From: Anaerococcus sp. AGMB09787
GTDB taxonomy: Bacteria > Bacillota > Clostridia > Tissierellales > Peptoniphilaceae
Assembly (NCBI RefSeq): GCF_022808955.1
Contig: NZ_JAKZEY010000050.1
Location: 1-64,000, forward strand
Direction: 5' to 3'
Length of the DNA: 64,000 bases
The notes beneath the pieces were generated by a model. That model worked only from the letters and a program-made list of their open reading frames with translations. It was not told the DNA's origin and did no database searches. Below are positions 2,332 through 59,372 of this stretch, in pieces. The first letter of the stretch is position 1; the number at the start of each line of letters is the position of its first letter. A program made the translations under genes and the position numbers.

Positions 2332-2352
2332 ATATACCTCCTGTCTATATAT

Positions 2353-2381
2353 AATATAATATAAAAAATGATTCTTGACAA
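2353..2381 (-). promoter_or_regulatory. SigA-type promoter of hppA
   Basis: On the minus strand TTGTCA and TATATT are separated by 17 bases, about 25 bases upstream of the hppA ribosome site. It lies between the stop of the upstream gene and hppA. Confidence 0.6.
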
Positions 2382-2404
2382 GGTTTTCTTTTCAATAAAA
2401 TAAA

Positions 2405-2878: not shown

Positions 2879-2920
2879 AAATACTTCCTTAGCTACTATT
2901 ATAACCTAGAAATAAATAAT

Positions 2921-2942
2921 AAAAAAGAGCATTTGTATGCCC
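2921..2942 (-). terminator. Rho-independent terminator after rpsR
   Basis: On the minus strand GGGCAT, loop ACAA, ATGCTC, then TTTTTT. It closes the rpsF-ssb-rpsR operon. Confidence 0.7.
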
Positions 2943-2982
2943 TTTGATATTGCTTATTGAAAAATTGTCTAATATCTATCTA

Positions 2983-3210
2983 TTAATTTTCTTCGTATGG
3001 TAGTAATGCAACTTGTCTAGCTCTTTTAATAGCTCTAGTAATCTCTCTTTGATGTTTTGCATTAAGACCTGTTACTCTTCTAGGTAGAATCTTACCTCTT
3101 TCAGTTATAAATCTTTTTAGAGTTTCGATATCTTTATAATCTATAACCTTTGAAGGATCTTTAACAAATGGGTCTACCTTTTTTCTTGGTCTAAATCTTC
3201 TTCCTGCCAT
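2983..3210 (-). CDS. rpsR: 30S ribosomal protein S18
   Basis: A basic protein of 75 residues, the normal length for bacterial S18. It contains the conserved core [20 protein letters not shown] and the [21 protein letters not shown] segment that binds rRNA and contacts S6. It is the last gene of rpsF-ssb-rpsR, the standard bacterial order, and starts after AAGGAA. There is no CxxC zinc motif at the N-terminus, so this is the zinc-free form. Transcription ends at the hairpin at 2921-2942. Confidence 0.97.
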
Positions 3211-3227
3211 TTATAATTCCTTTCTTA

Positions 3228-3752
3228 TTAGAATGGAATCCTACCATCGTCTTCTATTTCAGTAAAGTCATCATCGAAAAAGTCATCATCTGCAGAAAAT
3301 GAATCATTTTGACTATTTGGTCTTTGATTATTTTGAGTTTGTGAATAGGAATTATTATAAATATCTTGGTTGTCATTACTGTGATTATTATAGGATGAAT
3401 AAGAATTATCTGATCTTGATCCTAAAAACTCAACATTATCAGCGACAACATCTGTTGTATAAACTGTTTTTCCTGTTTCCCTATCTTGGTAAGATCCAGT
3501 TTCGATCCTACCTTCTACTGCGCATTGACTTCCTTTTCTTAAATATTTACTAGAATTTTCAGCTTGAGCTCCCCAAACTGTTATTCTAATAAAATCAGCT
3601 GTCGGACGATTTTGGGCTTCCATTTCGTTACGTCTTTCCCTACTAAGTCGCTTGTCGACTGCTAGTGTGAATGTACACACCGCTCTTTGTCCTTGAGTAT
3701 ACCTTAAGTCCGGATCTCTAGTAAGTCTTCCTATAAGTGTTACTCTATTCAT
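3228..3752 (-). CDS. ssb: Single-stranded DNA-binding protein
   Basis: Binds single-stranded DNA during replication, repair and recombination. Residues 1-110 form the OB fold (MNRVTLIGRLTRDPDLRYTQ, FTLAVDKR, ADFIRITVWG, GSQCAVEGRIETGSYQD). A flexible Asn/Gln/Ser-rich linker follows (about 118-155). The acidic tail ends DDGRIPF, the usual tip that docks partner proteins. It lies between rpsF and rpsR with gaps of 3 and 17 bases, so the three are co-transcribed. The 174-residue length is typical of Firmicutes SSB. Confidence 0.97.
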   Translation of the reverse strand: MNRVTLIGRLTRDPDLRYTQGQRAVCTFTLAVDKRLSRERRNEMEAQNRPTADFIRITVWGAQAENSSKYLRKGSQCAVEGRIETGSYQDRETGKTVYTTDVVADNVEFLGSRSDNSYSSYNNHSNDNQDIYNNSYSQTQNNQRPNSQNDSFSADDDFFDDDFTEIEDDGRIPF

Positions 3753-3755
3753 TGC

Positions 3756-4040
3756 TTAGTCCTCTTTTCTGATAACCATGTATCTGATTATAAAATCTGA
3801 AAGTCTTAGTCTTCTTTCAAATTCTTTGATATGGTCTGGGTTAGCTGTAAAGTCTACGATATAGTAATAACCTTCTTTTAGGTAATTAATTTCGTAAGCT
3901 AATTTTCTCTTTCCCCAATCGTCGACGTTAGTTACTTCACCATCTTGACCAATGATTTGTTTAAATCTCTCAAGAAGGTCAGTTCTATCACTGTCAGCCA
4001 TATCAGCTTTGAAAATCAATACTGCTTCGTAATTATTCAT
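3756..4040 (-). CDS. rpsF: 30S ribosomal protein S6
   Basis: S6 pairs with S18 on the platform of the small subunit. The 94-residue sequence starts MNNYEAVLIFKADM and contains the conserved WGKRKLAYEINYLKEGYYYIVDF segment split over two strands, ending RLSDFIIRYMVIRKED. First gene of the S6-SSB-S18 operon. It is preceded by a good ribosome site (AGGGAGGTG), a structured leader with a CCG motif, and a strong promoter at 4103-4131. In this family S6:S18 can repress its own operon through such a leader. Confidence 0.97.
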   Translation of the reverse strand: MNNYEAVLIFKADMADSDRTDLLERFKQIIGQDGEVTNVDDWGKRKLAYEINYLKEGYYYIVDFTANPDHIKEFERRLRLSDFIIRYMVIRKED

Positions 4041-4098
4041 TATTTCACCTCCCTACGGTCTATGACCCCGCTTATTAATACGGAGTAGAGAATTACCC
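4041..4098 (-). promoter_or_regulatory. Candidate S6:S18 autoregulatory leader
   Basis: The rpsF 5' leader on the minus strand can fold: CTCTAC at its start can pair with GTAGGGAG before the start codon, enclosing GGTC-ATA-GACC followed by CCG. Known S6:S18 leaders present a conserved CCG in a bulge next to a hairpin. Position and motif fit, but I folded it by eye only. Confidence 0.4.
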
Positions 4099-4102
4099 TT
4101 AT

Positions 4103-4131
4103 ATGTTACTCTCTAAGGGGGAGCTTGTCAA
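4103..4131 (-). promoter_or_regulatory. Promoter of rpsF-ssb-rpsR
   Basis: Consensus TTGACA and TAACAT separated by exactly 17 bases on the minus strand, about 60 bases before rpsF. The -35 box abuts the stop of the upstream peptidase gene. Confidence 0.75.
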
Positions 4132-5073
4132 CTAATTTTCTTGACTTTGGCTACTATAAATTGCATTGGCTATAGCCCTTGCCATAACCTTTGCTCCGAG
4201 GGCCCCTACGAGTGTGATGTCGGCTTCTACCTTGTTGGTTGCTATGGAAAAGATTGTATCTCCATCAAACATGGTATGGACTGGGTTTATAGCTCTGGCG
4301 TAGCCATCATGGGTCATTTGGGTGACCTTGGTTAGCCCTGTTTTATCGAAGGTCGCATTGGTTGCGACTATTCCTATGGTAGTGTTTTTTCCTTCGAGGT
4401 CAGCGAAGTTTTGGGCAATTTTTTCGATATTATCCATTGTTTTTACCATCTTGCCATCTACCCTTGGGCCTGCTATTTGTTCATTTCTTTCGTTATCGAA
4501 TATATCCCCAAAGGCATTTACTGCTACCATAGCACTTACTACAAGCTCTCCAAGCTTTATGCTTGCTTGGCCAAGTCCTGACTTTTGGGCGAAATTCATT
4601 CCGAAGGCCTTGCCAACTGTCGCTCCACTTCCTGCTCCAATTAGTCCCATTTCTTTGCTGTCATAGCTAGCCTTAGCTAGGGCTTCCCTTCCCATGGCTT
4701 CGTCTGGACGGGTTGAGCTATCCTTGTAGGCAAGGTCAAAGAGGACTGCCGAGCTTACTATAGGGACGACTCCGACTCCTACGTCAAGTCCTATCTTTTC
4801 TTCTTCTAGGGCCTTCATTACTCCACTTGCAGCTTCAAGTCCATAGGCTGATCCTCCTGCAAGGACTACTGCATTAAGGGAGCTAACTTGGTTGGTTGGG
4901 CTTAGGAGGTCTGTTTCACGAGTTCCTGGAGCTGACCCCCTTACTTCTACTGCACCGGTGTTTCCTTCATCGGGAATTATTACTGAGCAACCTGTTCCTG
5001 CTTCTAGGTTTTGGGCATGGCCCACCTTGATATTGCCAACATCTGTCAAAAATCCTGGATATAATTTATTCAT
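4132..5073 (-). CDS. P1-family (DmpA-like) aminopeptidase
   Basis: Belongs to the P1/DmpA N-terminal nucleophile family, whose precursors cleave themselves before a catalytic Ser or Thr to form an aminopeptidase. The family core is visible: IKVGHAQNLEAGTGCSVIIP, AVEVRGSAPGTRETDLL, VVLAGGSAYGLEAASG, and GAGSGATVGK with the likely processing region. About 313 residues. I place the start at 5073 (second of two tandem ATGs), because AGGAGAG then has normal spacing; it overlaps the upstream gene by 8 bases, suggesting translational coupling. The physiological substrate is unknown. Confidence 0.85.
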   Translation of the reverse strand: MNKLYPGFLTDVGNIKVGHAQNLEAGTGCSVIIPDEGNTGAVEVRGSAPGTRETDLLSPTNQVSSLNAVVLAGGSAYGLEAASGVMKALEEEKIGLDVGVGVVPIVSSAVLFDLAYKDSSTRPDEAMGREALAKASYDSKEMGLIGAGSGATVGKAFGMNFAQKSGLGQASIKLGELVVSAMVAVNAFGDIFDNERNEQIAGPRVDGKMVKTMDNIEKIAQNFADLEGKNTTIGIVATNATFDKTGLTKVTQMTHDGYARAINPVHTMFDGDTIFSIATNKVEADITLVGALGAKVMARAIANAIYSSQSQEN

Positions 5074-5755
5074 CATCTCTCCTATTTCTATAAGCATCCA
5101 TCATACTTGCAAAGACTTCAGAGCTTGAAGGTGGTGTATAGGATATGGCATTGGCACCAGCTTCGATTGTTTCTAAGATATGGTGGTTCTGCTTGCCCCC
5201 ACTTGCGATTATTGGGAATTCATTGCCGATATTTTTTCTAATCTCCCTTACTAGGTCTGCTGTGTACTTGCCACCTGCCACATTTAGGATCTCAGCCCCT
5301 GCTTCAATCTTACCCATATAGTCATTATCAAAGCTACTTACTGTGGCGATAACTGGTATATCTAAGAATTCTGCAATGGATTCTATATCCTTATTGGGCA
5401 TGGGAGAGTTCACTACTACCCCGTAAGCTCCCATAAGTTCTGCTTCTATGGCTATATATTTTGACCTAAGGCCTTGGGTTGTGCCCCCTCCAACTCCTAC
5501 AAAGCATGGCACATTTGCCACATCTAGGATGGCGCTAGTGATGGTGTTTTGTGGGGTATAGGGATAGACTGCCATGATTGAGTCAGCGTTTGAATTTCTA
5601 ATTATGGCGAGGTCTGTCGTAAAGAGAAGGGATTTTATTCTCTTATCAAAAATCTTAATCCCAGATGCCCTATAGATCTCTTCTGGTACCTTTATAAATG
5701 ATTTTCTAAGCTTGGAATGAACTTCCGGAATATACTTGTTGGTCTTTTTTTCCAT
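5066..5755 (-). CDS. TIM-barrel family protein of unknown function
   Basis: A 229-residue protein that reads as a (beta/alpha)8 barrel: alternating strands such as DLAIIRN, VPCFVGVGGG, GAYGVVVNSP, IPVIATVSSF, AEILNVAGG and FPIIASGGK end in Gly-rich loops. The last two loops (GGKYTAD and ASGGKQNHH) resemble phosphate-binding loops of flavin or phosphosugar barrels. Homologues in clostridia are usually labelled only hydrolase. I do not recognise the reaction. It starts 2 bases after the stop of the sugar dehydrogenase gene and overlaps the P1 peptidase gene, so the three probably form one operon. Confidence 0.6.
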   Translation of the reverse strand: MEKKTNKYIPEVHSKLRKSFIKVPEEIYRASGIKIFDKRIKSLLFTTDLAIIRNSNADSIMAVYPYTPQNTITSAILDVANVPCFVGVGGGTTQGLRSKYIAIEAELMGAYGVVVNSPMPNKDIESIAEFLDIPVIATVSSFDNDYMGKIEAGAEILNVAGGKYTADLVREIRKNIGNEFPIIASGGKQNHHILETIEAGANAISYTPPSSSEVFASMMDAYRNRRDDE

Positions 5756-5757
5756 AG

Positions 5758-6918
5758 TTAATCCCTATTAAATACATCTCTTGAATAAACTTTATCTTCT
5801 ACATCTACTAGATTTTCATCAATCCTATTTGCAACAATTATATCAGCCTTTTTAAATTCATCTAGGTCATTTACTACCCTCATGCCTTCAAAGTTTTCCT
5901 TATCTACATTTGGTTCATAGACTATTAGGTCAGATCCCTTGGCTTTGAGGTTCTTAACTACATCAAAGATGGCAGATTTTCTGAAGTTATCAGAGCCTTT
6001 TTTCATAACTAGCCTATAGATTCCTATGGTTTTTGGCTCCTTGGTCAAGATCCTGTCAGATACAAAGTCCTTACGGATTTTATTGGCATCTACTACTGCA
6101 TTAAACATGGCATTTGGCACATCTCTAAAGTTGGAGCTTAGTTGCATGGAATCTTTTGGTAAGCAGTAACCCCCATAGCCAAAAGAAGGGTTGTTGTAGT
6201 GGTTACCAATCCTTGGATCTCCACAGACTCCCTTGATTATATCCTTGGAATTAAGTCCCTTTACTTCAGCAAAAGAATCTAGTTCATTAAAGTAAGCCAC
6301 CCTCATAGCAAGGTAGGTATTGGCAAAGAGCTTGACTGCTTCAGCTTCGCTTGATTCCATGAGGATAATTTCAGGATCATTGAGGGCTTCATGCTTGAAA
6401 AGCTCTGCAATTTCCATCCCCCTATCAGATTTTTCTCCAACAATTATACGACTTGGATGGAGGCAGTCATAGAGAGCCCTACCCTCTCTCAAAAATTCTG
6501 GTGAGAAGATGATATTATCGCATCCATATTCCTTGTTTTTGCTCTCGGTGTAGCCAATTGGAATAGTAGATTTTATTAAAATAGTAACGTCCTCATTGAC
6601 TTCCTTGACTTCCTTGATAGCCCCATCTAGGTAGGAGGTATCGAAGTGTTCCTTGACCTCATCATAGTTGGTTGGAAGGGCAAGGATTACTAGGTCGCTA
6701 TCCTTGTAATGGACCTTAGGAGCCCTTTCAGCTCTCAAATTTAGGTCTTTATTTTCTAAGTATTCTATAATTTCCTTATCTACTAAGGGTGATTTTTTAT
6801 TATTAATCATGTCGATTTTTCTATCGTCAACGTCTATGCCTATAACTTCATTAGAAAGTCCAAGCAATATCGCGTTTGATAGGCCGACATAACCTAGTCC
6901 TACTAGTGTAATTTTCAT
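5758..6918 (-). CDS. ugd: UDP-glucose 6-dehydrogenase family enzyme
   Basis: NAD-dependent nucleotide-sugar dehydrogenase, probably oxidising UDP-glucose to UDP-glucuronate for surface polysaccharide. The N-terminal Rossmann fold has GLGYVGLS at 7-14 and an acidic residue after the second strand (IGIDVDD). The catalytic Cys is C252 in GYGGYCLPKDS, and FSPEFLREG at 138-146 is a family substrate motif. The 386 residues match the short bacterial UGDH type. Start follows AAGGAGA. First gene of a three-gene unit with the barrel protein and the P1 peptidase. Other substrates such as UDP-N-acetylmannosamine are possible, as there are no other polysaccharide genes nearby. Confidence 0.9.
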   Translation of the reverse strand: MKITLVGLGYVGLSNAILLGLSNEVIGIDVDDRKIDMINNKKSPLVDKEIIEYLENKDLNLRAERAPKVHYKDSDLVILALPTNYDEVKEHFDTSYLDGAIKEVKEVNEDVTILIKSTIPIGYTESKNKEYGCDNIIFSPEFLREGRALYDCLHPSRIIVGEKSDRGMEIAELFKHEALNDPEIILMESSEAEAVKLFANTYLAMRVAYFNELDSFAEVKGLNSKDIIKGVCGDPRIGNHYNNPSFGYGGYCLPKDSMQLSSNFRDVPNAMFNAVVDANKIRKDFVSDRILTKEPKTIGIYRLVMKKGSDNFRKSAIFDVVKNLKAKGSDLIVYEPNVDKENFEGMRVVNDLDEFKKADIIVANRIDENLVDVEDKVYSRDVFNRD

Positions 6919-6987
6919 AATGTCTCCTTAACTTTTATAAAATCACTTTACAGCTTTTAGTATTTTTATCAATTATTGAACTTTACC

Positions 6988-7412
6988 TTAGTCTCTAACA
7001 AATACTACTACTTCGTAGGACCTCATAACTAGAGGGTCGACCATAACCCATTTGTCATAATTGAATAGGACAAATTGGTTTAAATCGTAGGCTGGTTATA
7101 TACATTTGCTTTGTGGAAGAATTATTTTAGACTTAGGTTAATAATAACTAGGACCTTATCTCCAATAAAATACTTGGTAAAGGCAAGAATACCTTTTTCT
7201 CTTTTAAAAATTCTAACTGTCCTCGCTACAATCTTATTTGCTTACTTAAAGGAAATTATTCTTTTATAGAAAGAAAATACCTTAACCATATATTAAACCA
7301 TGTCAAAGGTCGAATAAAAGCCTGATTTAACTCTTAGTTCTTCCACCTTTTCATAAAATAATCGAAGTTCTCAGAAGGAAGAATGCTCCAATCCTTGCAC
7401 TTTGGCATTCCT
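6988..7412 (-). pseudogene. Decayed glycosidase C-terminal remnant (GH13-like)
   Basis: This stretch has no intact gene, but the minus strand holds pieces of a protein in shifting frames separated by stops. One piece, about 7225-7124, reads RIFKREKGILAF then TKYFIGDKVLVIINLSLK, resembling the C-terminal beta domain of alpha-glucosidases. Another, about 7081-6988, reads NQFVLFNYDKWVMVDPLVM and ends RSYEVVVFVRD, like the usual final strand of that domain (treC here ends LRPYECLALIKRF). A third piece near 7412-7350 reads CKDWSILPSENFDYFMKRW and was not identified. The rest of 6919-7587 shows only the alsT promoter. Confidence 0.5.
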
Positions 7413-7525
7413 ATGAGTAGTTTAGATTAGCATTGGCTTTTGTATATAACCCAAAAGTAGTTTTTAAATCTAAATAATTAATCTATTAAAATAAATTAGT
7501 AATTTCTATTAAATTATTTTTTTAA

Positions 7526-7554
7526 TTGAATATTCTTTCTTTGCTTAGTATAAT
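7526..7554 (+). promoter_or_regulatory. SigA-type promoter of alanine symporter gene
   Basis: TTGAAT and TATAAT separated by 17 bases, 33 bases before the start codon. Confidence 0.7.
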
Positions 7555-7587
7555 TATATATATTAAATTGTATTTGAGGTATAAGAT

Positions 7588-8970
7588 ATGCATTTTATTA
7601 TGACAATTAACAAATCACTTAACTCCATAGTTTGGGGCTGGCCTATGATAATATTGTTATTGGGAACTGGCATTTTATTATTTATAGCAACAAATGGACT
7701 AGTAATTAGAAATTTCAACTATATTTTTAAATCAACTTTCCTTAAGTTATTTAAAAAAGATACTACTGGAAGTGGAGAATTAACTGCTTTTCAAGCTGTT
7801 TCTACTGCTCTTGCTGCAACAGTAGGTACTGGAAACATAGTAGGAGTAGCTACTGCGATTTCAATCGGTGGACCAGGAGCTATATTTTGGTTGTGGGTTA
7901 GTGCTTTTTTTGGGATGACAACTAAATTTGCAGAAGTTACTTTAGCAATAGCTTATAGAGAAAAAAATCCAGTAACAGGTGCCTATGTTGGTGGTCCTAT
8001 GTACTATTTAAAAAATGGTGTAAAGTGCAAGGCTCTAGGTTCAGTTTTTGCTATATTTTCTGCCCTAGCAGCTCTTGGAATAGGAAATATGACCCAAGCA
8101 AATTCAATTTCTATGACACTTAAAGATAGTTTTGGACTTAGCCCTTACTTAGTTGGATTTGTTCTAATCATACTAACATCTCTTATTATAATACGAGGTA
8201 TTAATAGCATAGGAAAAGTTACAGAAAAACTGGTACCTTTTATGGCTATTTTTTATATACTAGCTTGCCTTTTTATTATTTTTTCAAATATTAATAAGTT
8301 AGGCCCTATTTTAACAAGTATTTTTGCAAATGCTTTTAATCCAAGTGCAGCAGCGGGAGGAATAGCTGGCATTAGTCTTAAATCATCTATGAAAGCTGGT
8401 ATTTCTAGGGGACTTTTTTCAAATGAAGCAGGACTTGGTTCTGGACCTATTGCACATGCAGCTTCTAAAACTGATCATCCAGTAAGACAAGGACTCTGGG
8501 GAGTCTTCGAAGTTTTAGTAGATTCCTTTATAATTTGTAGTTTGACATCTTTTGTTATTCTTATAAGTGACAATTATAAAGAAGGATTAGAGGGAGCAGC
8601 AATAACTACTCAATCTTTTAATAGTGGCATACCTTATGGAGCTTATATAGTTAGCATTAGTTTAACATTATTTGCTTTTTCTACAATAATAGGTTGGTAT
8701 TATTACGGAGAAAAAAGCCTTGAATATCTTTTTGGATCAAAAGGCTCAAAGTTTTATAAATTAATCTATCTTCCTATTATTTTTTTAGGAGCTGTGGGTG
8801 GACTAAAAGAAATTTGGTCTATATCTGATACTATGAACGGTCTAATGGCCATACCAAACCTAATTGGTTTAATCGTTTTAACACCTACCTTAAAGCGATT
8901 AATTAAAAATTTCTTTGAAGATCCGGATAGGATTCGCCAAATTAATGAATATGAAGATCTCCTTAGATAA
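7588..8970 (+). CDS. alsT: Sodium:alanine (AGCS) symporter
   Basis: Na+-coupled alanine/glycine uptake protein of the AGCS family. The 460 residues contain about 11 hydrophobic helices. Family signatures include FQAVSTALAATVGTGNIVGV, GGPGAIFWLWVSAFFGM, GAYVGGPMYY and LFSNEAGLGSGPIAHA. The start follows GAGGT. It is the only plus-strand gene in the first 12 kb and is noticeably more AT-rich in codon use than the neighbouring minus-strand genes. Together with the decayed DNA upstream, that suggests a rearranged or acquired segment. Monocistronic, with its own promoter and a terminator hairpin that includes its last codons. Confidence 0.93.
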   Translation: MHFIMTINKSLNSIVWGWPMIILLLGTGILLFIATNGLVIRNFNYIFKSTFLKLFKKDTTGSGELTAFQAVSTALAATVGTGNIVGVATAISIGGPGAIFWLWVSAFFGMTTKFAEVTLAIAYREKNPVTGAYVGGPMYYLKNGVKCKALGSVFAIFSALAALGIGNMTQANSISMTLKDSFGLSPYLVGFVLIILTSLIIIRGINSIGKVTEKLVPFMAIFYILACLFIIFSNINKLGPILTSIFANAFNPSAAAGGIAGISLKSSMKAGISRGLFSNEAGLGSGPIAHAASKTDHPVRQGLWGVFEVLVDSFIICSLTSFVILISDNYKEGLEGAAITTQSFNSGIPYGAYIVSISLTLFAFSTIIGWYYYGEKSLEYLFGSKGSKFYKLIYLPIIFLGAVGGLKEIWSISDTMNGLMAIPNLIGLIVLTPTLKRLIKNFFEDPDRIRQINEYEDLLR

Positions 8971-8984
8971 AAAGGAGATCTTTC
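8953..8984 (+). terminator. Hairpin overlapping the alsT stop codon
   Basis: GAAGATCTCCTT and AAGGAGATCTTTC form a 12-base stem with the TAA stop (8968-8970) in the loop. The T tract is short, so it may act partly as a 3' stabiliser. Confidence 0.6.
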
Positions 8985-9000
8985 ATAGTTAATAAATATT

Positions 9001-9025
9001 TATAGGTTCTTATAAGAAACCTATA
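9001..9025. repeat. Inverted repeat between alsT and treC
   Basis: TATAGGTT and AACCTATA flank a 9-base centre that is itself nearly palindromic (CTTATAAGA). On the minus strand it is followed by an AT-rich tail, so it may be the weak terminator of the treB-treC operon. Nothing else was seen in 9026-9119. Confidence 0.45.
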
Positions 9026-9119
9026 CGCTTAATCTCTTGTCGACAGGTTCTTTAACTATATTCCTTAGAAAGCTTTCTGATATAACTAAAATTTATAGTA
9101 GTTTTGTAATAACCATGGA

Positions 9120-10781
9120 TTAAAATCTTTTTATGAGGGCAAGGCATTCGTAGGGTCTTAGATTTATTTTTTTATTTATTTCGACTCTTCCGTAGTTACC
9201 TAGCAAGTATTCATATTCTTGGTAGGAGTCAACCATGTTTTCTAGATCAACTTCTAAGCTCTTGCCAGTAAAGTTGGAGAAGTTCACTAGGACATTACCC
9301 TCATATTCTCTTACAAAGGCAAGGATATTCTCATCATCTTCAAGAATTGGGAAATACAAACCATCTGATATTAGATTTTCTTCCTTCCTATGCTCTATTA
9401 GTTTTTTGTAATAATAAAAGATAGAATTTTTATCTGCAAGGGCCTTTTTTACATTAATTTCCTTGTAATTATCATTTACCCTAATCCAAGGAGTCTCCTC
9501 ACTAAAGCCAGCATTTGAGCTGTCATTCCATTGCATAGGAGTCCTTGAGTTATCCCTAGACTTAAGCTTAATTATCTTTAGGGCATCATCTTCACTCATC
9601 CCCTTAGCAAGGAGGGCATCGTAGGCATTGAGGCTCTCGACATCCCTATAATCTCCTATGGAATCATAGTCAGGATCTGTCATACCTATTTCTTCTCCCT
9701 GATAAATGAAAGGAGTCCCCCTCATTAGGTGGATGGTTTGAGCTAGCATGGTAGAAGTTTGGTAGTGGTACTTGTCTACATCGCCAAACCTCGTATTTGC
9801 CCTAGTCTGGTCATGGTTATTAAAAAATAAGGCGTTCCACCCACTATGCTCTTGCATCTCGCCTTGCCAGTAGTTTAGGGTGCCCTTTAGTTTTTTGAAA
9901 TCAAAGCTTGCGTCAGTCCATTTTTCTCCGTCCTTATAGTCAACTTTGAGGTGGTGGAAGCTAAAGACCATGGATAATTCACTTCCCTCAGGATTACTAT
10001 AGAGAGCTGAGTTATGAACATCTGTTGAACTCATCTCCCCTACAGTTATTATATCCTCATCCTTGCCAAAGGTATTTTTATTTAGCTCCTCTATCCATTC
10101 ATGGACAATCCTGGTATCGGTGTAGAGCTTCTTCTCTTCATCTATATTGCCTGAACTATCCTTAAGGTCCTTGGACTTACCGATGACATTTAGGACATCA
10201 AACCTAAAGCCCTTGATACCTTTATCTATCCAATAATTTACTATCTTGTAGACTTCTTTGCGGACATTTTTATTGTGCCAATTCAAATCAGCCTGGGTCT
10301 TATCATAAAGGCAGAGGTAATACTTGTCAGTATCACCAAATTTATTCCAGGCTGGACCCCCAAATTTGGAAGTCCAGTTGTTTGGATAAGACCCATCCTT
10401 GCCATCTCTTATATAATAGAAATCTTGGTAGTACTCATCTCCATCTAGTGCCTTTTGGAACCACTCATGAGAGGTGGATGTATGGTTTAAGACCATATCA
10501 AACATTAGACCAAGCCCCTTTTCATCAAAGGTCTCTATTAACTTATCCAGTTCCTCATCAGTCCCAAACAAGGGATCTACATGGTAGTAGTCGGCTATGT
10601 CATAGCCATTATCATTTTGAGGTGATACAAAGAAGGGATTTATCCAAACCATATCAACTCCTAACTTCTTAAAATAATCAGCCTTTTGCCTAATCCCTTC
10701 AAGGTCTCCTATACCATTTCCACTAGTATCTTTAAAAGACCTGGGATAGGCTTGATATATAACTTTCTTACCTAAATTCAT
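9120..10781 (-). CDS. treC: Trehalose-6-phosphate hydrolase (phosphotrehalase)
   Basis: GH13 enzyme that splits trehalose 6-phosphate into glucose and glucose 6-phosphate in the cytoplasm. The catalytic set is intact: nucleophile D195 in GFRFDVLN, acid/base E249 in VGEMSS, and D324 in NNHDQTR; DMVLNHTS is at 95-102. The small C-terminal beta domain ends LRPYECLALIKRF. The 553 residues are normal for TreC. The gene follows the trehalose PTS permease after 8 bases, which makes this substrate far more likely than the related oligo-1,6-glucosidase role. No treR regulator is present nearby. Confidence 0.93.
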   Translation of the reverse strand: MNLGKKVIYQAYPRSFKDTSGNGIGDLEGIRQKADYFKKLGVDMVWINPFFVSPQNDNGYDIADYYHVDPLFGTDEELDKLIETFDEKGLGLMFDMVLNHTSTSHEWFQKALDGDEYYQDFYYIRDGKDGSYPNNWTSKFGGPAWNKFGDTDKYYLCLYDKTQADLNWHNKNVRKEVYKIVNYWIDKGIKGFRFDVLNVIGKSKDLKDSSGNIDEEKKLYTDTRIVHEWIEELNKNTFGKDEDIITVGEMSSTDVHNSALYSNPEGSELSMVFSFHHLKVDYKDGEKWTDASFDFKKLKGTLNYWQGEMQEHSGWNALFFNNHDQTRANTRFGDVDKYHYQTSTMLAQTIHLMRGTPFIYQGEEIGMTDPDYDSIGDYRDVESLNAYDALLAKGMSEDDALKIIKLKSRDNSRTPMQWNDSSNAGFSEETPWIRVNDNYKEINVKKALADKNSIFYYYKKLIEHRKEENLISDGLYFPILEDDENILAFVREYEGNVLVNFSNFTGKSLEVDLENMVDSYQEYEYLLGNYGRVEINKKINLRPYECLALIKRF

Positions 10782-52693: not shown

Positions 52694-53932
52694 CTAGAAC
52701 TTAAGTTTAATCTTAAAGATGATGTCAAAGAACTTGTAGGAGAATAACAAGCAAATTGCAAATAAGATAATCCCTACTATAGGGTGAACTTCCATAAATA
52801 CTGATAGGGTTATGGATGTCGCCATATTAGCTAGTGTTAAAACTCCAAAGAACTTGCACACCATAGCTATAGGCTTATATATAATCATATAGCCTGACCT
52901 TTCTGCTATAAATTTCTTCGATGTAAAATAAGCTATAGCAAATACTATTAGACTTACTAGCAAGAATGCTAGGATTGAATTAATATTATCTTGTCTTAAA
53001 TTAGAAAGGGATAAGACAGTCGCAGGAAACCTATCTAGCCCTCTAATAAAGTCATTATATTTCATATCTATATCAGCATATATTCTTAAACTAAATATAG
53101 ATAAGAAGGTTGCTATATTGAAGTTTATTAGGTGGGTTCCTGTAAAGATCATAAAACCAAGTCCTATGTGGCCTAGGAAATTTCCTGCAATAAATCCTAG
53201 AGAAGTTGTTATGATACTTGTTCCTAGGAGGATCAAGATATCCCTCACTATCTGGTTTATTAGACTTGTGTAGTCCAAGATACTGCCAAAGGCTGAGCTT
53301 TTTAAGGCAAAAGTTACAAAGATTATATTGACCACATAGACAAATAGTGAAAGTAAGAAGGTAAAGACAACCTTCATTGCCAAATCTTCTCTCTTCTTCC
53401 AAGGTAGCATCCTAGTAAAGTCATAAATAGGCATAGATTGCTCTAGAGATGTTATTATTATGGAAAATATTATTATAAATACCATAATAGGCCCCAAGAG
53501 ATTTTCGTAGTAGGAAGTTGGATTAAGCCCCTTCTCATTGAACTTCTCTATGAAGTAATGATAGGAATTGTAGGTCAAGTTCTGAGCATCATGGCCTGTA
53601 TTGTTGATTCTCTCATAATAATAAGTAGCCTCAGCATCACTTACACTTTCTAATTCCCTGCCTGACATGAGCTTATACTTATCCTTAAACTTGAAGGCTA
53701 TTATCCTAGTTTCCTTAATAAGCTCATCATTAATGACGATATCCTTCCCAAAGCTATCCTTATCAATGTCTTCTTTCATTTCATTTATGTTATTAATAAA
53801 AGTCTGGTATTCAGATTTTAAGGTATTTCTTGATCCAAAACTTAAAACTATTACCAAAAATATTAAGGCTGGAATTAAAAGCAGGTAAAATCTCTTAATA
53901 ATAAAAATTGAAAGATCCTTAAATTTCCTCAT
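52694..53932 (-). CDS. ABC-2 type permease of a GntR-controlled transporter
   Basis: A 412-residue membrane protein with a first helix (about 12-32), a long extracellular loop (about 35-140, mostly charged), then about six more hydrophobic segments to the C-terminus. It overlaps the ATPase gene by 14 bases. The arrangement GntR regulator, ATPase, permease is that of Bacillus YtrA-type export systems, which often respond to wall-active compounds. No close family motif is seen, so the substrate is open. Confidence 0.75.
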   Translation of the reverse strand: MRKFKDLSIFIIKRFYLLLIPALIFLVIVLSFGSRNTLKSEYQTFINNINEMKEDIDKDSFGKDIVINDELIKETRIIAFKFKDKYKLMSGRELESVSDAEATYYYERINNTGHDAQNLTYNSYHYFIEKFNEKGLNPTSYYENLLGPIMVFIIIFSIIITSLEQSMPIYDFTRMLPWKKREDLAMKVVFTFLLSLFVYVVNIIFVTFALKSSAFGSILDYTSLINQIVRDILILLGTSIITTSLGFIAGNFLGHIGLGFMIFTGTHLINFNIATFLSIFSLRIYADIDMKYNDFIRGLDRFPATVLSLSNLRQDNINSILAFLLVSLIVFAIAYFTSKKFIAERSGYMIIYKPIAMVCKFFGVLTLANMATSITLSVFMEVHPIVGIILFAICLLFSYKFFDIIFKIKLKF

Positions 53933-54797
53933 AGTTTATTCCTCCAGCTTCAAGATAGAAATAATCTTCTACCTTAGGATTTAATATATCATATTGGACA
54001 ACATCATCCCTATTCAAAAACCTAGATAACTTGCTCTCGTCTATATTTATAAGGACTGTTGCTACCCTTCCTATCTTGTTGACTACTATAGTTTGGTCAA
54101 GAAATTCCCTTGGGATTTCATCCTTGAAGACTACTTGGACCTTATTTAGCTGATTAATTTCCCTATTTGATGTATCTATTAAATTGCCAGCTAGGCTTAG
54201 GTAGTAGATATTATCTGCTATACCAGAGAGCTTATCTATTTGGTGGGATGATGCAAAAATAGCCCTACCTTGGTCCTTGGCATCTATTAAATAGGTCAAA
54301 ATCTTCTCGCTGTTTAAAATATCCATCCCATCAAGAACCTCATCAATTAGGAGAATATCAGCCCTACTCGCAAGGATTGTAATAAGCCCTAGGATATTCT
54401 TTTCTCCCTTAGAAAAAATTCTAATATTTTGATTAGGATCTATCTTATTTTTATTAATTTGAGTAAAAAAGAAGTCTGTATCAAAGTCTTTATAAATAAC
54501 CCTATAAAAATCAGGAATAGCCCTAGCCCTATAATAATTAAAGTATTCAAACCTATCAGGCAAAAAGGCAATCTTTGAAATCAAGGCCTTATCATCCTTT
54601 AGGCTCACACCATCTATTGTAAAATCTCCCTCGTCTATGTCATATATGCCTGACATACACTTAAATAAGGTGGTCTTACCTGATCCATTCCTTCCAACAA
54701 GACCTGTTATAAGGCCCTTCTCTAGGTCTAGGGAGATCTTATCTAGGACCCTCCTATCTTCAAAAGATTTAACCAAATTATTAACCCTTATTTTCAT
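53919..54797 (-). CDS. ABC transporter ATP-binding protein
   Basis: A 292-residue ATPase. Walker A is GRNGSGKT near residues 36-43, Walker B ILLIDEVLD near 147-155, and the switch His is in FASSHQIDKL. The signature sequence is FSKGEKN, a departure from the usual LSGGQ but found in some ABC-2 ATPases. The last 80 residues (FKDEIPREFLDQTIVVNKIG onward) form an extra C-terminal domain common in this group. It overlaps the GntR gene by 17 bases. Confidence 0.9.
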   Translation of the reverse strand: MKIRVNNLVKSFEDRRVLDKISLDLEKGLITGLVGRNGSGKTTLFKCMSGIYDIDEGDFTIDGVSLKDDKALISKIAFLPDRFEYFNYYRARAIPDFYRVIYKDFDTDFFFTQINKNKIDPNQNIRIFSKGEKNILGLITILASRADILLIDEVLDGMDILNSEKILTYLIDAKDQGRAIFASSHQIDKLSGIADNIYYLSLAGNLIDTSNREINQLNKVQVVFKDEIPREFLDQTIVVNKIGRVATVLINIDESKLSRFLNRDDVVQYDILNPKVEDYFYLEAGGINYEEI

Positions 54798-55161
54798 CGA
54801 TCATCCTTTCACATCTACTAAACAAGTCAGAAAGCTCATCCTTGCTATAGCCCAAGAAAATAGCCTGCTTAAAATCCTCTATGAGATTTTTTTCAAACTT
54901 CCCCTTATCATTGACAATCTTACCCTTATCTATTTTGATAAAAGTCCCGACTCCTGGCCTAGTTTCAATCAGACCTATCTTGTCAAGTTCTTTGAAGGCC
55001 TTGGAGACTGTAGTCTGATTTATAGTAAGAATTTTGGCAAGTTCTCTTACAGAAGGAAACTTGTCCCCCTCTTTCAAGATACCTGCTGCTAGAAGGCTCT
55101 TAGTTTGTTCAACGATCTGCATATATAAGGGAGTATTTGAATTGTAATTTAAATCAAACAT
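54781..55161 (-). CDS. GntR/YtrA-family transcription regulator
   Basis: A 126-residue regulator starting at 55161 (MFDLNYNSNTPLYMQIVEQT) behind GGAGGGG; an upstream ATG would run over the operator. The winged-helix domain (1-80) has FPSVRELAKILTINQTTVSK and AFKELDKIGLIETRPGVG. The short C-terminal tail (about 95-126), without a ligand domain, defines the YtrA subfamily that controls adjacent ABC genes. It is first in the operon and sits behind a palindromic operator, so it probably represses itself and the transporter. Confidence 0.92.
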   Translation of the reverse strand: MFDLNYNSNTPLYMQIVEQTKSLLAAGILKEGDKFPSVRELAKILTINQTTVSKAFKELDKIGLIETRPGVGTFIKIDKGKIVNDKGKFEKNLIEDFKQAIFLGYSKDELSDLFSRCERMIDENKG

Positions 55162-55182
55162 ATACCCCTCCATTGGTGTTAT

Positions 55183-55198
55183 GCGTATCACCATACAC
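55183..55198 (-). promoter_or_regulatory. Probable GntR operator
   Basis: GTGTAT-GGTG-ATACGC, a near-perfect inverted repeat (one mismatch), sits between the -10 box and the GntR start, similar to YtrA-type operators with GTGTA half-sites. Confidence 0.6.
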
Positions 55199-55340: not shown

Positions 55341-55369
55341 TTGAATATTATTGTTATTTAAACTATAAT
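55341..55369 (+). promoter_or_regulatory. Promoter of the Rnf/Nqr operon
   Basis: TTGAAT and TATAAT with exactly 17-base spacing, 73 bases before the first gene. A second possible start is the extended -10 TGTTATAAT at 55414-55422, just before the ribosome site. Confidence 0.65.
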
Positions 55370-55442: not shown

Positions 55443-56408
55443 ATGGCTTTAAAAAATCTATTTTTAAAACAAAAAATGATGAGAACAGTTTTGTTCGCCC
55501 TTATTCCTATTATGATATTTTCAGTTCTAAATTTCGGCTGGCGTGTTCTATGTCTTTATATTTTCAACATAGTTATCGCTTGCCTAGTGGAATATCTATC
55601 TCAAGCTAAGTTATATAAAAACAAAAAAATCTCAGAAGCTGCTATAGTATCTGCGATTTTATATACAATGACTTTGCCAGCTAGTATTCCATTCTGGATA
55701 TCAGCAGTAGGAATTATCTTTGCAATGTTTTTCGGTAAGGCTGTTTTCGGTGGTTTTGGTAAAAACGTATTTAACCCAGCTCTAGTTGGTAGAGTTTTTA
55801 TCTATGTTAACTTCCCACAACCACTAACTATTAGTTGGAACCAAAATTCTTTCCCAGCTATTTCTAATTGGTTAACTCCTGTAATTGATGATGTATCAAT
55901 GGCAACACCAATGCTAATGTTTAAGAACGGAAATGAGCTTGCTAGCATTTCTGATTTATTCTTTGGTTTGGTGCCAGGATCTATTGGTGAGACTTCTAAA
56001 TTATTAATTATCCTTGGTGGTATTTATTTAATTGTTAAGAAAGTTGCATCATGGGAAATTATGGTCTCATCACTTATTGGATTTACAGGTTTGTCCCTAA
56101 TCTTGAGAATGATGGGATTTGATAGTGTCCTACCACCATTTTATGGTATCTTATCAGGTGGATTCTTGTTTGGTACTGTATTTATGGCAACAGATCCTAT
56201 CTCTGCACCTAAGACTAAGATAGCTAAGTGGTGCTACGGAATTATCATAGGTGTAGTTACTGTAATTATCAGAGGTTTCGCCCTATTCTCAGGTGGTATG
56301 ATGTTTGCAATCCTTATAGGCAATACTTTTGGACCTATAATCGATTACGCAGTAAGAAAGAGTCAACAAGCTAAAAAAGCAAAACAAAGGAGATGGCAGC
56401 ATGAGTAA
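55443..56408 (+). CDS. rnfD: RnfD/NqrB-like flavinylated membrane subunit
   Basis: Membrane subunit of an Rnf/Nqr-type ion-pumping complex. The 321 residues match RnfD length (NqrB is longer), with about nine to ten hydrophobic segments. The motif VSMATPM carries the probable FMN attachment Thr155, following the S-x-A-T pattern. Conserved parts include GKAVFGGFGKNVFNPALVGR near 98-117 and MATDPISAPKT near 250-260. First of five genes, overlapping the next by 8 bases. It follows GGAGGTG. Confidence 0.92.
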   Translation: MALKNLFLKQKMMRTVLFALIPIMIFSVLNFGWRVLCLYIFNIVIACLVEYLSQAKLYKNKKISEAAIVSAILYTMTLPASIPFWISAVGIIFAMFFGKAVFGGFGKNVFNPALVGRVFIYVNFPQPLTISWNQNSFPAISNWLTPVIDDVSMATPMLMFKNGNELASISDLFFGLVPGSIGETSKLLIILGGIYLIVKKVASWEIMVSSLIGFTGLSLILRMMGFDSVLPPFYGILSGGFLFGTVFMATDPISAPKTKIAKWCYGIIIGVVTVIIRGFALFSGGMMFAILIGNTFGPIIDYAVRKSQQAKKAKQRRWQHE

Positions 56409-57009
56409 TAAAAAATCAATGGTAAAACCTGTTATCTTTATGATTATATTGTCCGTAATCTTGACTTTTATTTTAGCTTTTGTAAATGAAATCACAAGCC
56501 CAAAGATATCAGAAAATACAGAGCTTGCCCTAATGGAAAAGATCCTCTATGTTTTTGATATCGACTATGACGCAAATGACCCTGAATCTATAAAGGCTAC
56601 CTTTAACGAAAATGTAGAAGAAGATGAATACGATGGTAAAGCATTGTTTGTATACAAGCCAAGTGGTGAGGTTGAGGGCTATGCTGTTCAAGTTAACGGA
56701 CCAGGTCTTTGGGGATCTATCTCAGGTTATGTAGGAATCAGTGCTGACTTTAATAGCCTCCTTGGTATTTCCTTTACAGAGCAAGATGAAACACCAGGAC
56801 TAGGTGGTCGTATAGAAGAGGAAGAGTACAAGAGCCAATACAGGGGGCTTGATATAGAAGGTAAGGATAGCGACTTTGTTATCAACAAACCTGCCCCAGG
56901 TGGAAATATCGATGCTATATCAGGCGCTACTCAAACCTCAACCTTTGTTGTCGACTTAGTAAATGACGATCTTCAAAGTTTCATAGAAGATATGGGAGGA
57001 AATAAGTAA
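56401..57009 (+). CDS. rnfG: RnfG/NqrC-like FMN-binding subunit
   Basis: Single N-terminal membrane helix (about 9-29) and an extracytoplasmic FMN-binding domain. The motif AISGATQTS gives covalent FMN attachment at Thr177. Family segment PGLWGSISGYVGISADFNSL then LGGRI precede it. At 202 residues it has RnfG length, shorter than NqrC (about 255). The next gene starts on its stop codon (TAATG overlap). A flavin transferase (ApbE), needed to load FMN here and on RnfD, is not in the window. Confidence 0.93.
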   Translation: MSNKKSMVKPVIFMIILSVILTFILAFVNEITSPKISENTELALMEKILYVFDIDYDANDPESIKATFNENVEEDEYDGKALFVYKPSGEVEGYAVQVNGPGLWGSISGYVGISADFNSLLGISFTEQDETPGLGGRIEEEEYKSQYRGLDIEGKDSDFVINKPAPGGNIDAISGATQTSTFVVDLVNDDLQSFIEDMGGNK

Positions 57010-57617
57010 TGAAGAAATACAAAGAAATTCTTAAAAATGGAATACTCCACGACAATCCCGTATTAGTACAAGTAATAGGAATTTGTTCTGCCCTAGCAGT
57101 TACAAACCTTGCCCTTAACTCATTGATTATGGGTCTTGCCCTTACCTTTACTACAGCCCTATCATCTTTTATAATCTCATTAATTAAGGATGTAACTCCT
57201 AAACACATTAGGATGGTTGTTCAAGTATTTGTAATATCATTCTTCGTAATCTTGGTAGATATATTCCTCAAGGCCTACATGCCAGAAATGAGCAAGACAC
57301 TTGGACCTTATGTAGGACTTATAATTACCAACTGTATTATCATGGGTAGGGCTGAAGCCTTCGCAATTTCAAATCCACCAGTAGATTCCCTAGTAGATGG
57401 ATTTGCAGCAGGTATAGGTTATACTCTAGTTCTATTGGCAGTAGCAATCATTCGTGAAATCTTAGGATTCGGTGCAATATTTGGTATACAAATCCTACCA
57501 GATAGCTGGACACCATGGACCTTGATGGTAATGCCACCAGGAGCCTTCTTCATCCTACCTATTATAATGTGGGTTGCTTATAATTTAATGAATAAAAAGA
57601 AAGGAGCTAAAAACTAA
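57009..57617 (+). CDS. rnfE: RnfE/NqrD-like membrane subunit
   Basis: A 202-residue protein with six hydrophobic helices. Conserved blocks are GICSALAVTNLALNSLIMGL near 27-46 and LIITNCIIMGRAEAFA near 103-118. In Nqr and Rnf, Cys in these two half-repeats of NqrD/E or RnfE/A hold an intramembrane iron-sulfur centre; Cys are present at both equivalent places here. Start and stop overlap both neighbours by one base each. Confidence 0.94.
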   Translation: MKKYKEILKNGILHDNPVLVQVIGICSALAVTNLALNSLIMGLALTFTTALSSFIISLIKDVTPKHIRMVVQVFVISFFVILVDIFLKAYMPEMSKTLGPYVGLIITNCIIMGRAEAFAISNPPVDSLVDGFAAGIGYTLVLLAVAIIREILGFGAIFGIQILPDSWTPWTLMVMPPGAFFILPIIMWVAYNLMNKKKGAKN

Positions 57618-58201
57618 TGACTATACATCCATTGGTAATATTCTTTGCATCAATTTTTACGAGCAATATGATTTTCTCAAACTTCTTGGGAATGTGCTCC
57701 TTTATATCAGTTAGTAAAGAAGTTGAAACAGCAACAGGACTTGGAATAGCAGTAACTTTCGTACTTACAGTAACTACAATTTTGAACTATTTTGTCTACA
57801 AGCTCTTAATTTACTTTAACCTTGAGTATTTGAGGTTTATAGTCTTCATAATTGTAATCGCTGCCTTCGTACAAGTTCTCGAAATGTTCCTAGAAAGATA
57901 TATCGAAAATCTCTACTATGCCCTAGGAATCTTCCTACCACTTATAACTGTAAATTGTGCTATCCTCGGTGTATCACTATTTATGGTTATCAGAGAATAC
58001 AACTTCCTACAAACAGTATTTTTCGGTATGGGTTCAGGTATTGGTTGGGCTTTGGCTATAATTTCTATGGCAGGCATCAGAAGTCGTGTCAACGAAAATA
58101 TCCTACCTGAAGGACTTAGAGGAGCTCCAATCACACTAATAATCACAGGAATCATGGCACTAGCCTTTATAGGATTCTCTGGTATAGTACAAATTTCTTA
58201 G
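57617..58201 (+). CDS. rnfA: RnfA/NqrE-like membrane subunit
   Basis: A 194-residue membrane protein, partner of RnfE, with six helices in inverted topology. Conserved blocks are FTSNMIFSNFLGMCSFISVS near 14-33 and LPLITVNCAILGVSLFMV near 108-125, both with the Cys that should ligate the shared iron-sulfur centre. FFGMGSGIGWALAIISMAGI is the C-terminal family block. It starts on the last base of rnfE and is followed by the NqrF-type gene after 8 bases. Confidence 0.94.
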   Translation: MTIHPLVIFFASIFTSNMIFSNFLGMCSFISVSKEVETATGLGIAVTFVLTVTTILNYFVYKLLIYFNLEYLRFIVFIIVIAAFVQVLEMFLERYIENLYYALGIFLPLITVNCAILGVSLFMVIREYNFLQTVFFGMGSGIGWALAIISMAGIRSRVNENILPEGLRGAPITLIITGIMALAFIGFSGIVQIS

Positions 58202-58209
58202 GAGTTATT

Positions 58210-59325
58210 ATGGGTCAAATTTTAATAACAACTTTAGTAATAACATTAATCTCCGCAGTCCTCGCCATCATCCTTACTATAGCTGATAGGATAATGAATG
58301 ACTATGGAGAAGTTACAATTACTATCAACGATGAGAAAAACTTAAATGTAGACGGTGGATCAAGCCTTCTATCTTCCCTTACAAGTCAAAAAATCTTCAT
58401 CCCATCAGCTTGTGGTGGTAAGGGATCATGTGGTTATTGTAAGGTAAAGGTCCTTGATGGTGCAGGCCCAGTCCTTGCTACCGAAAAACCTTGGCTATCA
58501 GAAGAAGAGCTTGCCAATAATACAAGACTTTCTTGCCAAATAAAGGTTAAACAAGACTTAAAAATCGAAATCCCAGAAGAACTATTCAATGTAAAAGAGT
58601 TTGAAACAACCCTAGTTGAAAAGGAAATGGTAACAGATAGGATAGCTAAGATTAGACTTGAACTACCTGAAGGTGAAAAAGTTTCATTCAAGCCTGGTCA
58701 ATTTATGCAAATAAAAACCAAGCCTTACAAGGGTGGTAAGGACTATGAAGGCTCTGATGAATCTGTTATAAGAGCCTACTCAATAGCATCATCTATCAAA
58801 GATAAAAACCACTTAGAATTCTTGATTGGTTATACCAAGGGTATCTGTACAACCTATATCCACAAGGTCTTAGAAGTTGGAGATAAGGTTGAAGTTACTG
58901 GTCCTTATGGTGATTTCTACTACAAGGATGATGATAGTGACGAAATCCTACTAATCGCAGCAGGTACTGGTTTTGCACCAATTAGGTCAATCCTCTACCA
59001 TATGAGAGATAACGACATCCAAAAACCTGCAAGATTTTACTTCGGAGCCAAAACTCCAGACGACCTCTTCTTGGTCGATGAGATGAAGATGTTCGAAGAA
59101 GAACTTAACGACTACAAGTTCATGCCTACCCTATCAAGGGCTGATGATTACCCTGACTGGGCAGGAGATCGAGGAAGAGTTAATAAGTCTATCGATAAGT
59201 ATGTAAAAGAAGATGTAAAATACTCAGCCTACCTCTGTGGTAGTCCTAGAATGATCGAAGGTATTGTTAAAGACCTCAAAGACAGAGCTGTTGGAGAAGA
59301 CAAAATATTCTTTGATGAGTTCTAG
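58210..59325 (+). CDS. nqrF: NqrF-like NADH dehydrogenase subunit
   Basis: Electron-input subunit of 371 residues. A single membrane helix (about 4-24) is followed by a [2Fe-2S] ferredoxin domain with C68, C74, C77 and C109 (SACGGKGSCGYC and LSC). An FAD domain (RAYSIAS near 188) and an NAD-binding domain (AAGTGFAPIRSIL near 254; YLCGSP near the end) complete the NADH reductase. This is the NqrF type; true Rnf systems use RnfB and RnfC instead. It ends the five-gene operon. Confidence 0.93.
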   Translation: MGQILITTLVITLISAVLAIILTIADRIMNDYGEVTITINDEKNLNVDGGSSLLSSLTSQKIFIPSACGGKGSCGYCKVKVLDGAGPVLATEKPWLSEEELANNTRLSCQIKVKQDLKIEIPEELFNVKEFETTLVEKEMVTDRIAKIRLELPEGEKVSFKPGQFMQIKTKPYKGGKDYEGSDESVIRAYSIASSIKDKNHLEFLIGYTKGICTTYIHKVLEVGDKVEVTGPYGDFYYKDDDSDEILLIAAGTGFAPIRSILYHMRDNDIQKPARFYFGAKTPDDLFLVDEMKMFEEELNDYKFMPTLSRADDYPDWAGDRGRVNKSIDKYVKEDVKYSAYLCGSPRMIEGIVKDLKDRAVGEDKIFFDEF

Positions 59326-59338
59326 AAATATAAAATTA

Positions 59339-59372
59339 GTGCCAGGCCAGGGTATGGCTTGGTACTTTTTTT
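59339..59372 (+). terminator. Terminator of the Rnf/Nqr operon
   Basis: GTGCCAGGCCA and TGGCTTGGTAC form an 11-pair stem, followed by TTTTTTT. Confidence 0.9.

Follow-up and report, generated by a model that had tools for sequence, protein, structure and literature searches.

The window analysed here is a stretch of 64,000 nucleotides of Anaerococcus sp. AGMB09787 (NZ_JAKZEY010000050.1, positions 1 to 64,000), a part of contig C46 in a genome of 2.0 Mb and 98% completeness, and our subject is an operon of five genes, D-G-E-A-F, at positions 55443-59325 (Table 1). The open reading frames and their Pfam and NCBIfam families agree with those given in a first-pass annotation of this DNA, which had described the locus as a hybrid Rnf/Nqr operon. 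The subunits are equivalent to NqrB/RnfD (D), NqrC/RnfG (G), NqrD/RnfE (E), NqrE/RnfA (A) and NqrF (F). Consecutive genes are spaced by -8, -1, -1 and +8 bases, and a GGAGGTG stretch resembling a ribosome-binding site stands immediately 5' of the ATG of D. The strong terminator proposed earlier was borne out, as its stem folds at -24.5 kcal/mol (z -5.4) and none of 200 shuffled sequences folded equally well. The claim of one promoter stood in part: a match to 10 of the 12 consensus bases is present, but that it is the single promoter is unproven, such matches being not clearly enriched in the window (22 found, 15.9 +/- 3.9 expected). Among the open reading frames of the window, no NqrA, RnfB or RnfC adjoins the operon, as had been noted.

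Table 1. Positions of the features discussed; those in the first eleven lines are numbered within the window, the others within the locus named
Feature	Positions	Strand	Basis
D, RnfD/NqrB-type membrane flavoprotein, 321 amino acids (aa), short and lacking the N-terminal docking arm	55443..56408	+	PF03116, 298.5 bits
G, RnfG/NqrC-type FMN_bind protein, 202 aa	56401..57009	+	PF04205, 57 bits
E, RnfE/NqrD-type membrane subunit, 202 aa	57009..57617	+	PF02508, 203 bits
A, RnfA/NqrE-type membrane subunit, 194 aa	57617..58201	+	PF02508, 189 bits
F, NqrF-type NADH dehydrogenase, 371 aa	58210..59325	+	Fer2, FAD_binding_6, NAD_binding_1 (Pfam)
Intrinsic terminator, stem-loop followed by T run	59338..59366	+	Folding energy against shuffles
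Promoter-like match TTGAAT-17-TATAAT	55341..55369	+	Consensus match only
Codon of D Thr155	55905..55907	+	
Codon of G Thr177	56929..56931	+	
Codon of D residue 284	56292..56294	+	
GntR-type regulator and ABC transporter ATPase	53919..55194	-	Model scores below cut-off
Gene after F, L056	2168..2650		
Gene after F, L058	6319..6804		
Gene after F, L059	8123..8575		
Gene after F, L060	6208..6660		
Gene after F, L057			Clustering only
FMN_bind protein, L205	82..1890	-	
FMN_bind protein, L206	1486..1863	-	
Six-gene operon, L107 (genome G149)	5012..10577		
633-aa and 1077-aa proteins, L193 (genome G540)	3..5168		
RNF-like locus, L214 (genome G335)	379..5139		

At E <= 1e-60, F was found in 72 of the 199 genomes of the order (Tissierellales), in 43 of its 81 genera, and a full-length match occurs in 2 of the 31 genomes of the genus. 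At 67 of the 72 loci, the window included, the genes stand as D-G-E-A-F, and nothing resembling NqrA or RnfC was found in the stretch examined (F is cut or split in two of them); at four others a contig end interrupts the operon, and the one in genome G149 is preceded by an additional gene. The five-gene set also occurs in Helcococcus sueciensis, Miniphocaeibacter, Spirochaetes, Limnochordia and Cloacimonadota, and a contig of Mcinerneyibacterium starts inside E. At all five Bacteroidota loci whose contig extends there, nqrA lies upstream of nqrB.

The NCBIfam models of Nqr and those of Rnf match D and G nearly equally well. D reaches 217.5 and 245.3 bits with the nqrB models (below cut-off) and 234.8 with rnfD, the only model whose cut-off (207) it passes, while G gives 99.6 bits with rnfG and 96.3 with nqrC, both below cut-off. 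E clearly, and A slightly, score better as NqrD and NqrE, and F is nearest to NqrF (TIGR01941, 257.8 bits, below the model's cut-off of 295). The [2Fe-2S], flavin adenine dinucleotide (FAD) and NADH domains of NqrF are all found in F, which has an N-terminal hydrophobic stretch, the [2Fe-2S] cysteines 68, 74, 77 and 109 (kept in 82/82 rows), the FAD motif RAYS at 188-191 and the NAD-binding domain. The membrane [2Fe-2S] site is formed half by Cys26 and Cys109 of E (80/80 rows) and half by Cys27 and Cys114 of A (83/83); Glu89 of A is invariant. The threonines for covalent attachment of flavin mononucleotide (FMN), earlier described as intact, are Thr155 of D (79/79) and Thr177 of G, inside DAISGAT (80/80). 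The 79 D rows include five loci present twice, and thus 74 distinct loci; rows shorter than 180 (E and A), 170 (G) or 340 (F) aa are excluded from the other counts. Of the riboflavin ligands listed by Hau 2023 (PMC10643135), a source used also for the quinone contacts below, N108, N111 and A113 are kept in all 79 D rows, D251 in 78, and G106 and F247 in 77 each, position 70 being Thr or Ser. The membrane acids Glu50 (79/79) and Asp301 (78/79) are kept as well. Vibrio cholerae positions were mapped by hand from alignments, and G141, L138 and E144, which fall outside the aligned block, were anchored on the invariant Glu. A separate peculiarity of D is residue 284, which is Gly in 71 of the 79 rows and Glu in 20/20 RNF, Nqr and FeS-NqrA-type rows; it sits three residues before the position aligned with an FMN-contacting residue of RnfD helix X.

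The N-terminal region of D is where the five-gene complex departs from its relatives. The corresponding arm of RnfD is described as buried in RnfC (Vitt 2022, PMC9588780), and the N-terminus of NqrB as intertwined with a loop of NqrA and forming the inhibitor site (Kishikawa 2022, PMC9325719). The median number of residues before the first transmembrane helix is 15 (range 5-43) in the five-gene D rows, as against 26 (22-33) in 10 RNF rows and 57 both in 5 Nqr rows and in 5 rows of a fourth group, FeS-Nqr, which is introduced below; these lengths were taken from the longest possible start and hence are not understated. A PH motif marks the arm in 10/10 RNF, 5/5 Nqr and 4/5 FeS-Nqr rows, and in none of the 79 five-gene rows. 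This pattern was widened after inspection of the misses of a narrower one, which had given 6/10, 4/5, 4/5 and 0/79, respectively. With 11 of 12 further RNF loci added, the motif is present in 21 of 22. Thus, neither the RnfD arm for RnfC nor the NqrB region that anchors NqrA and helps form the inhibitor/quinone site was found in five-gene D. The quinone contacts F159 and G141 of NqrB are also missing, the window having A67 and C47 in their place. The F159 position is Val, Ile, Ala or Leu in 79/79 five-gene D, Phe or Tyr in 5/5 Nqr and Phe or Leu in the FeS-Nqr group; G141 was dropped as a quinone marker, being Leu in 5/5 sampled Nqr. All Nqr rows are from Bacteroidota, apart from one Neomarinimicrobiota locus that the A and F sets also contain, and all RNF rows are from the phylum of the window. 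The RNF locus that deviates in the motif, L214, is odd in other respects: its D-containing protein has 802 aa, and the first conserved Cys of both E and A seems absent, as judged from the N-termini only.

No NQRA_N match occurs in the whole Anaerococcus genome, which extends the earlier statement that NqrA is not adjacent. Across the order, matches were found in 100 of the 199 genomes, 41 of them over the Pfam cut-off of 25 bits. They were rejected as NqrA, since no single stretch exceeded 29.6 bits and frame totals reached at most 31.2; for a Bacteroidales NqrA, the full NqrA model gives 474 bits. Most of these frames have 440-500 aa (the size of RnfC), 130-150 aa (read as biotinyl proteins) or 1140-1170 aa (the size of pyruvate carboxylase), a few being of other sizes; those in G053 and G200, for example, fall within the rnfC matches of these genomes. 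The matches were judged by size and score without each being opened, and the full NqrA model was not applied to the genomes.

The same genome carries a complete rnfCDGEAB operon on another contig (C6), and rnfC is present in 199/199 genomes of the order. The complex might therefore borrow RnfC, or RnfB, from the separate operon, and the first-pass annotation had taken rnfB and rnfC found elsewhere as co-regulated partners to speak against its own reading. To the letter they are there, in that separate operon only; the loss of the docking arm argues against a shared RnfC. The genome's own RnfD keeps the motif that no five-gene D has, and a complex taking in NADH and giving out NAD+ would, by reasoning, yield no free energy. 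We rejected a shared RnfC on the absent arm and give such borrowing very little credence.

The relationships of the five-gene complex were examined in trees of concatenated D, E and A rooted on RNF (a quick one of 54 rows and a careful one of 47, the latter with 19 five-gene rows and 18 of 22 RNF loci, L196, L197, L202 and L214 being left out) and in a separate unrooted tree of F. Both rooted trees gave four groups, RNF, Nqr, five-gene and FeS-Nqr, each with support of 99-100. The branching order of the latter three was unresolved in the quick tree; in the careful one the five-gene group is sister to sampled Nqr (99/97) and the FeS-Nqr group branches first. Two alternative placements were rejected weakly (approximately unbiased test, p 0.031 and 0.015), and the Nqr branch is long. 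In the F tree the groups stand apart, the five-gene one with modest support (82/74). The sampled five-gene rows form one clade, which reaches Spirochaetes, Limnochordia and Cloacimonadota. Because this clade falls on the side of Nqr, as sister to the sampled Nqr, the complex seems to be a relative of Nqr from which the A subunit has gone, a derived loss and not a primitive intermediate. The earlier terms 'hybrid' and 'step between Rnf and Nqr' are not supported by this placement. It would still be conceivable, as that annotation implied, that the complex is a relic of a stage at which NqrF had been acquired before NqrA existed, and the position of the group as a separate clade beside Nqr would suit such a history. 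Yet both the RNF outgroup and the FeS-Nqr group have an RnfC/NqrA homologue together with the D arm, which makes loss in the five-gene group simpler; the sister relation to Nqr in the careful tree points the same way, and a better transitional form exists in the FeS-Nqr operons. We consider a relic improbable.

The FeS-Nqr form was met in the six-gene operon of G149 (L107), where a 496-aa protein is followed by an NqrB with full N-terminal region and then by G, E, A and F. This protein keeps both CxxCxxCxxxC ([4Fe-4S]) motifs of RnfC and lacks the RnfC motifs GxGGAxFP and NGAECEP, which we take to be the FMN and NAD sites. It carries the NqrA loop preceding the place of the first Cys motif. 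Flavin binding seems to have been lost, although the protein still gives 47.5 bits with the FMN-domain model of Nuo51 in Pfam. Its scores are 241.6 with rnfC (cut-off 245.95) and 149.8 with nqrA, and the relative in L190 scores 269.7 (over cut-off) and 159.8; the corresponding values are 33 and 474 for Bacteroidales NqrA, and 509.5 and 50.7 for the RnfC of the Anaerococcus genome. The form was found in 4 of 398 sampled genomes of the phylum, with 48-52% identity, both Cys motifs and identical six-gene order, so that five genomes are known to carry it (L107, L190, L191, L192 and L193, the loop being shortened in L193). On the 3' side of the G149 operon lie genes for a polyprenyl synthase, UbiA, a UbiE-type methyltransferase and TatC, with three open reading frames between the synthase and UbiA that were given no family search; such a neighbourhood is what an enzyme linked to menaquinone would be expected to have (of the five genomes, G149 is the one in which UbiA was sought). 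Downstream of the operon in L193 are genes for two proteins, one of 633 aa with weak similarity to RnfC (43 bits) and one of 1077 aa resembling ferredoxin, which may be NuoF- and NuoG-type subunits. The origin of NqrA from RnfC by loss of the NAD and FMN sites and of the Fe-S cysteines was postulated by Reyes-Prieto 2014 (PMC4014512). The FeS-NqrA subunit seems to be without the former and to retain the latter, which makes it a concrete candidate for the transitional form in a step that had only been postulated. A limited literature search found no paper on it.

What the five-gene complex does may be approached from the parts it has kept. Since it has all cofactor sites of the Nqr path up to the riboflavin of D, electrons from NADH are likely to flow across the membrane, and from the kept core ion transport can be inferred. 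Electrons would pass from NADH to the FAD and [2Fe-2S] of F, from there to the [2Fe-2S] between A and E, then to the FMN of G on the outer side and on to the FMN and riboflavin of D. The core common to Nqr and Rnf would power ion transport, and the electrons would leave to an acceptor other than a self-made quinone, which is favoured because the complex has lost the output subunit together with its anchor, and also the quinone contact of Nqr. To that extent, a distinct NADH-driven complex with intact flavinylation sites, as first proposed, is supported, and no NqrA was found in the genome. We lean, with modest confidence and from sequence comparison, towards a five-subunit NADH-oxidising relative of Nqr, probably translocating Na+ or H+, whose output subunit has been lost and whose acceptor is not a quinone.

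The survey of quinone genes bears on this. No UbiA-family match was found in the Anaerococcus genome. Of the 71 carriers other than G149, 59, this genome among them, lack a UbiA-family match that exceeds the cut-off, and two of these have one of 19.5 bits beneath it; such carriers probably make no quinone of their own, and uptake from outside is possible. The complex could nevertheless be an ordinary NADH:quinone reductase with no need for NqrA, supplied with quinone by neighbours or through an unrecognised route. Recent structures place ubiquinone on NqrB and find NqrA to be without cofactor, according to the text of PMC10643135 and PMC12174285, while in the 2022 paper (PMC9325719) the quinone head-ring sits on NqrA, a subunit absent here. 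With the inhibitor/quinone region of NqrB absent, F159 replaced throughout and no UbiA over the cut-off in most carriers, we regard quinone reduction as rather unlikely. Several observations nonetheless weigh against the non-quinone acceptor or its supporting evidence. Eighteen of the 79 five-gene D rows reach the shortest RNF arm (22 residues) by the longest start, none of them with the motif; RNF also lacks F159 (Ala in 10/10), so that its loss alone does not exclude a quinone; and 12 of the 71 carriers do have a UbiA-family protein. UbiA is not rarer in carriers (13/72, one being G149, against 13/127 non-carriers, p 0.13; 26 of the 199 genomes in all), and its loss as a trait linked to the operon is not supported, the order being mostly without it. 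The riboflavin site of D is kept, which would suit a quinone reductase and favours return of electrons to the cytosolic side over an outer exit, and no link was found between the operon and the exported flavoproteins considered next, genomes without the operon not having been surveyed for them.

For the non-quinone acceptor itself, two candidates may be named. Besides a single apbE, the genome encodes four FMN_bind proteins: G, RnfG, a protein combining FMN_bind with FAD_binding_2 (437 bits as flavocytochrome c) and one of 125 aa. The last two (L205 and L206) look like exported flavinylated lipoproteins, from a signal and a lipobox-like Cys recognised by eye, and are candidate outer electron acceptors, one of them a flavocytochrome-c-like reductase; the 'flavin-linked electron export' suggested earlier is thus possible. 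In Anaerococcus we slightly favour such lipoproteins as acceptors, tentatively and at less than an even chance. About as likely, and so equally doubtful, is a cytosolic protein of flavodoxin, rubredoxin or rubrerythrin type that would replace RnfC or NqrA, binding D at its bare cytosolic face and receiving electrons from the riboflavin. The FMN and riboflavin sites of D are kept and the return route is probably used. A family of 150-160 aa (length from four members read) stands directly 3' of F in five of the six five-gene loci outside Tissierellia, followed in L056 and L058 by a rubrerythrin-type gene. The cluster to which the rubrerythrin-type gene of L056 belongs has members no more than three genes away from the operon in 6 of 84 loci (L054, L056, L126, L140 and L155, one locus being present twice). 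No such gene stands beside the operon in the window or at most loci of the order, and the family after F has no Pfam match (four members), no NCBIfam match (one member) and, with a model of pLDDT 87.7, no PDB fold at E <= 0.001, which leaves it a candidate only for a redox role.

Gene neighbours gave no general clue to the acceptor. Among 433 neighbours clustered, no gene recurs next to the operon at more than 16 of the 84 loci, and the three largest clusters, of 16, 14 and 13 loci, seem to be housekeeping genes. A peroxiredoxin-type cluster occurs near the operon in six loci (L048, L162, L163, L164, L166 [next to F], and L049) and, with the rubrerythrin-type one, points to a possible oxidative-stress setting; all these names were given by eye from sequence starts, except that of L056 (Pfam). 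Upstream of the operon in the window, a GntR-type regulator and an ATP-binding cassette (ABC) transporter ATPase are encoded divergently. The best models are PdxR, then PmtR, for the former and PmtA for the latter, all with scores below cut-off, and the ABC gene holds the equivalent position in a 99% identical relative (L040).

The five-gene variant itself is already in print. NqrBCDEF without NqrA has been reported for Pseudothermotoga thermarum/lettingae (PMC4148951) and, in one figure, for Clostridium ultunense and Alkaliphilus metalliredigens (PMC5924567), and a five-subunit NqrBCDEF for Ca. Izimaplasma ZiA1 (PMC6256511). As far as their descriptions go, these share with the window the five subunits and an Rnf elsewhere in the genome; the order BCDEF and the lack of NqrA, both found here, are stated for C. 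ultunense and Pseudothermotoga. In the passages concerned, PMC4148951 and PMC5924567 name the missing NqrA and call the acceptor unknown or perhaps of lower potential than quinone. Unlike the present work, the parts of these accounts that deal with the operon offer neither a tree nor an analysis of the docking arm, and cover neither quinone genes nor the spread among taxa; no study treating the variant as a clade was found in the literature searched. As far as these searches show, the complex belongs to a variant noted and never characterised; new here are the order-wide count, the clade and its reach, the loss of the D arm and Phe, and the UbiA survey. The first observation on this locus is thereby confirmed and its interpretation partly supported. 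If the proposed function is true, anaerobes usually deemed fermenters run NADH-driven ion pumping without self-made quinones. It is conceivable, at rather less than even odds, that the family is a third energy-converting Rnf/Nqr class, an NADH-driven ion pump of quinone-free fermenters passing electrons to outer flavoproteins or to a partner at the bare face; such bacteria would then have respiration without quinones. The purpose of NqrA was left open in a 2025 review, in the part consulted (PMC12174285), and the five-gene family offers a natural test of its role, as Nqr once NqrA and its holding arm are lost.

Set beside the sodium-translocating NADH:quinone oxidoreductase (Na+-NQR) of the Vibrio cholerae type, the five-gene complex shares the NqrF-type NADH input, the membrane [2Fe-2S], two covalent FMN sites, the riboflavin site and the membrane acids. 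It differs from those six subunits by the absence of NqrA and of the NqrB N-terminal region, by the replaced quinone-contact Phe and by a shorter F (371 against 408 aa). With RNF (rnfCDGEAB) it has in common the core D, G, E and A, and its D is of RNF length; RnfB, RnfC and the RnfD arm motif are missing, and NqrF stands instead. The two-subunit Nqr/Rnf-like systems, as described in PMC8238504 and PMC11334425, resemble it in leading electrons from NAD(P)H to an outer FMN, in a proposed one-way export. They fuse an NqrB/RnfD-like domain to the NAD domain (PF00175), whereas in the five-gene complex D and F are separate genes, accompanied by A and E.

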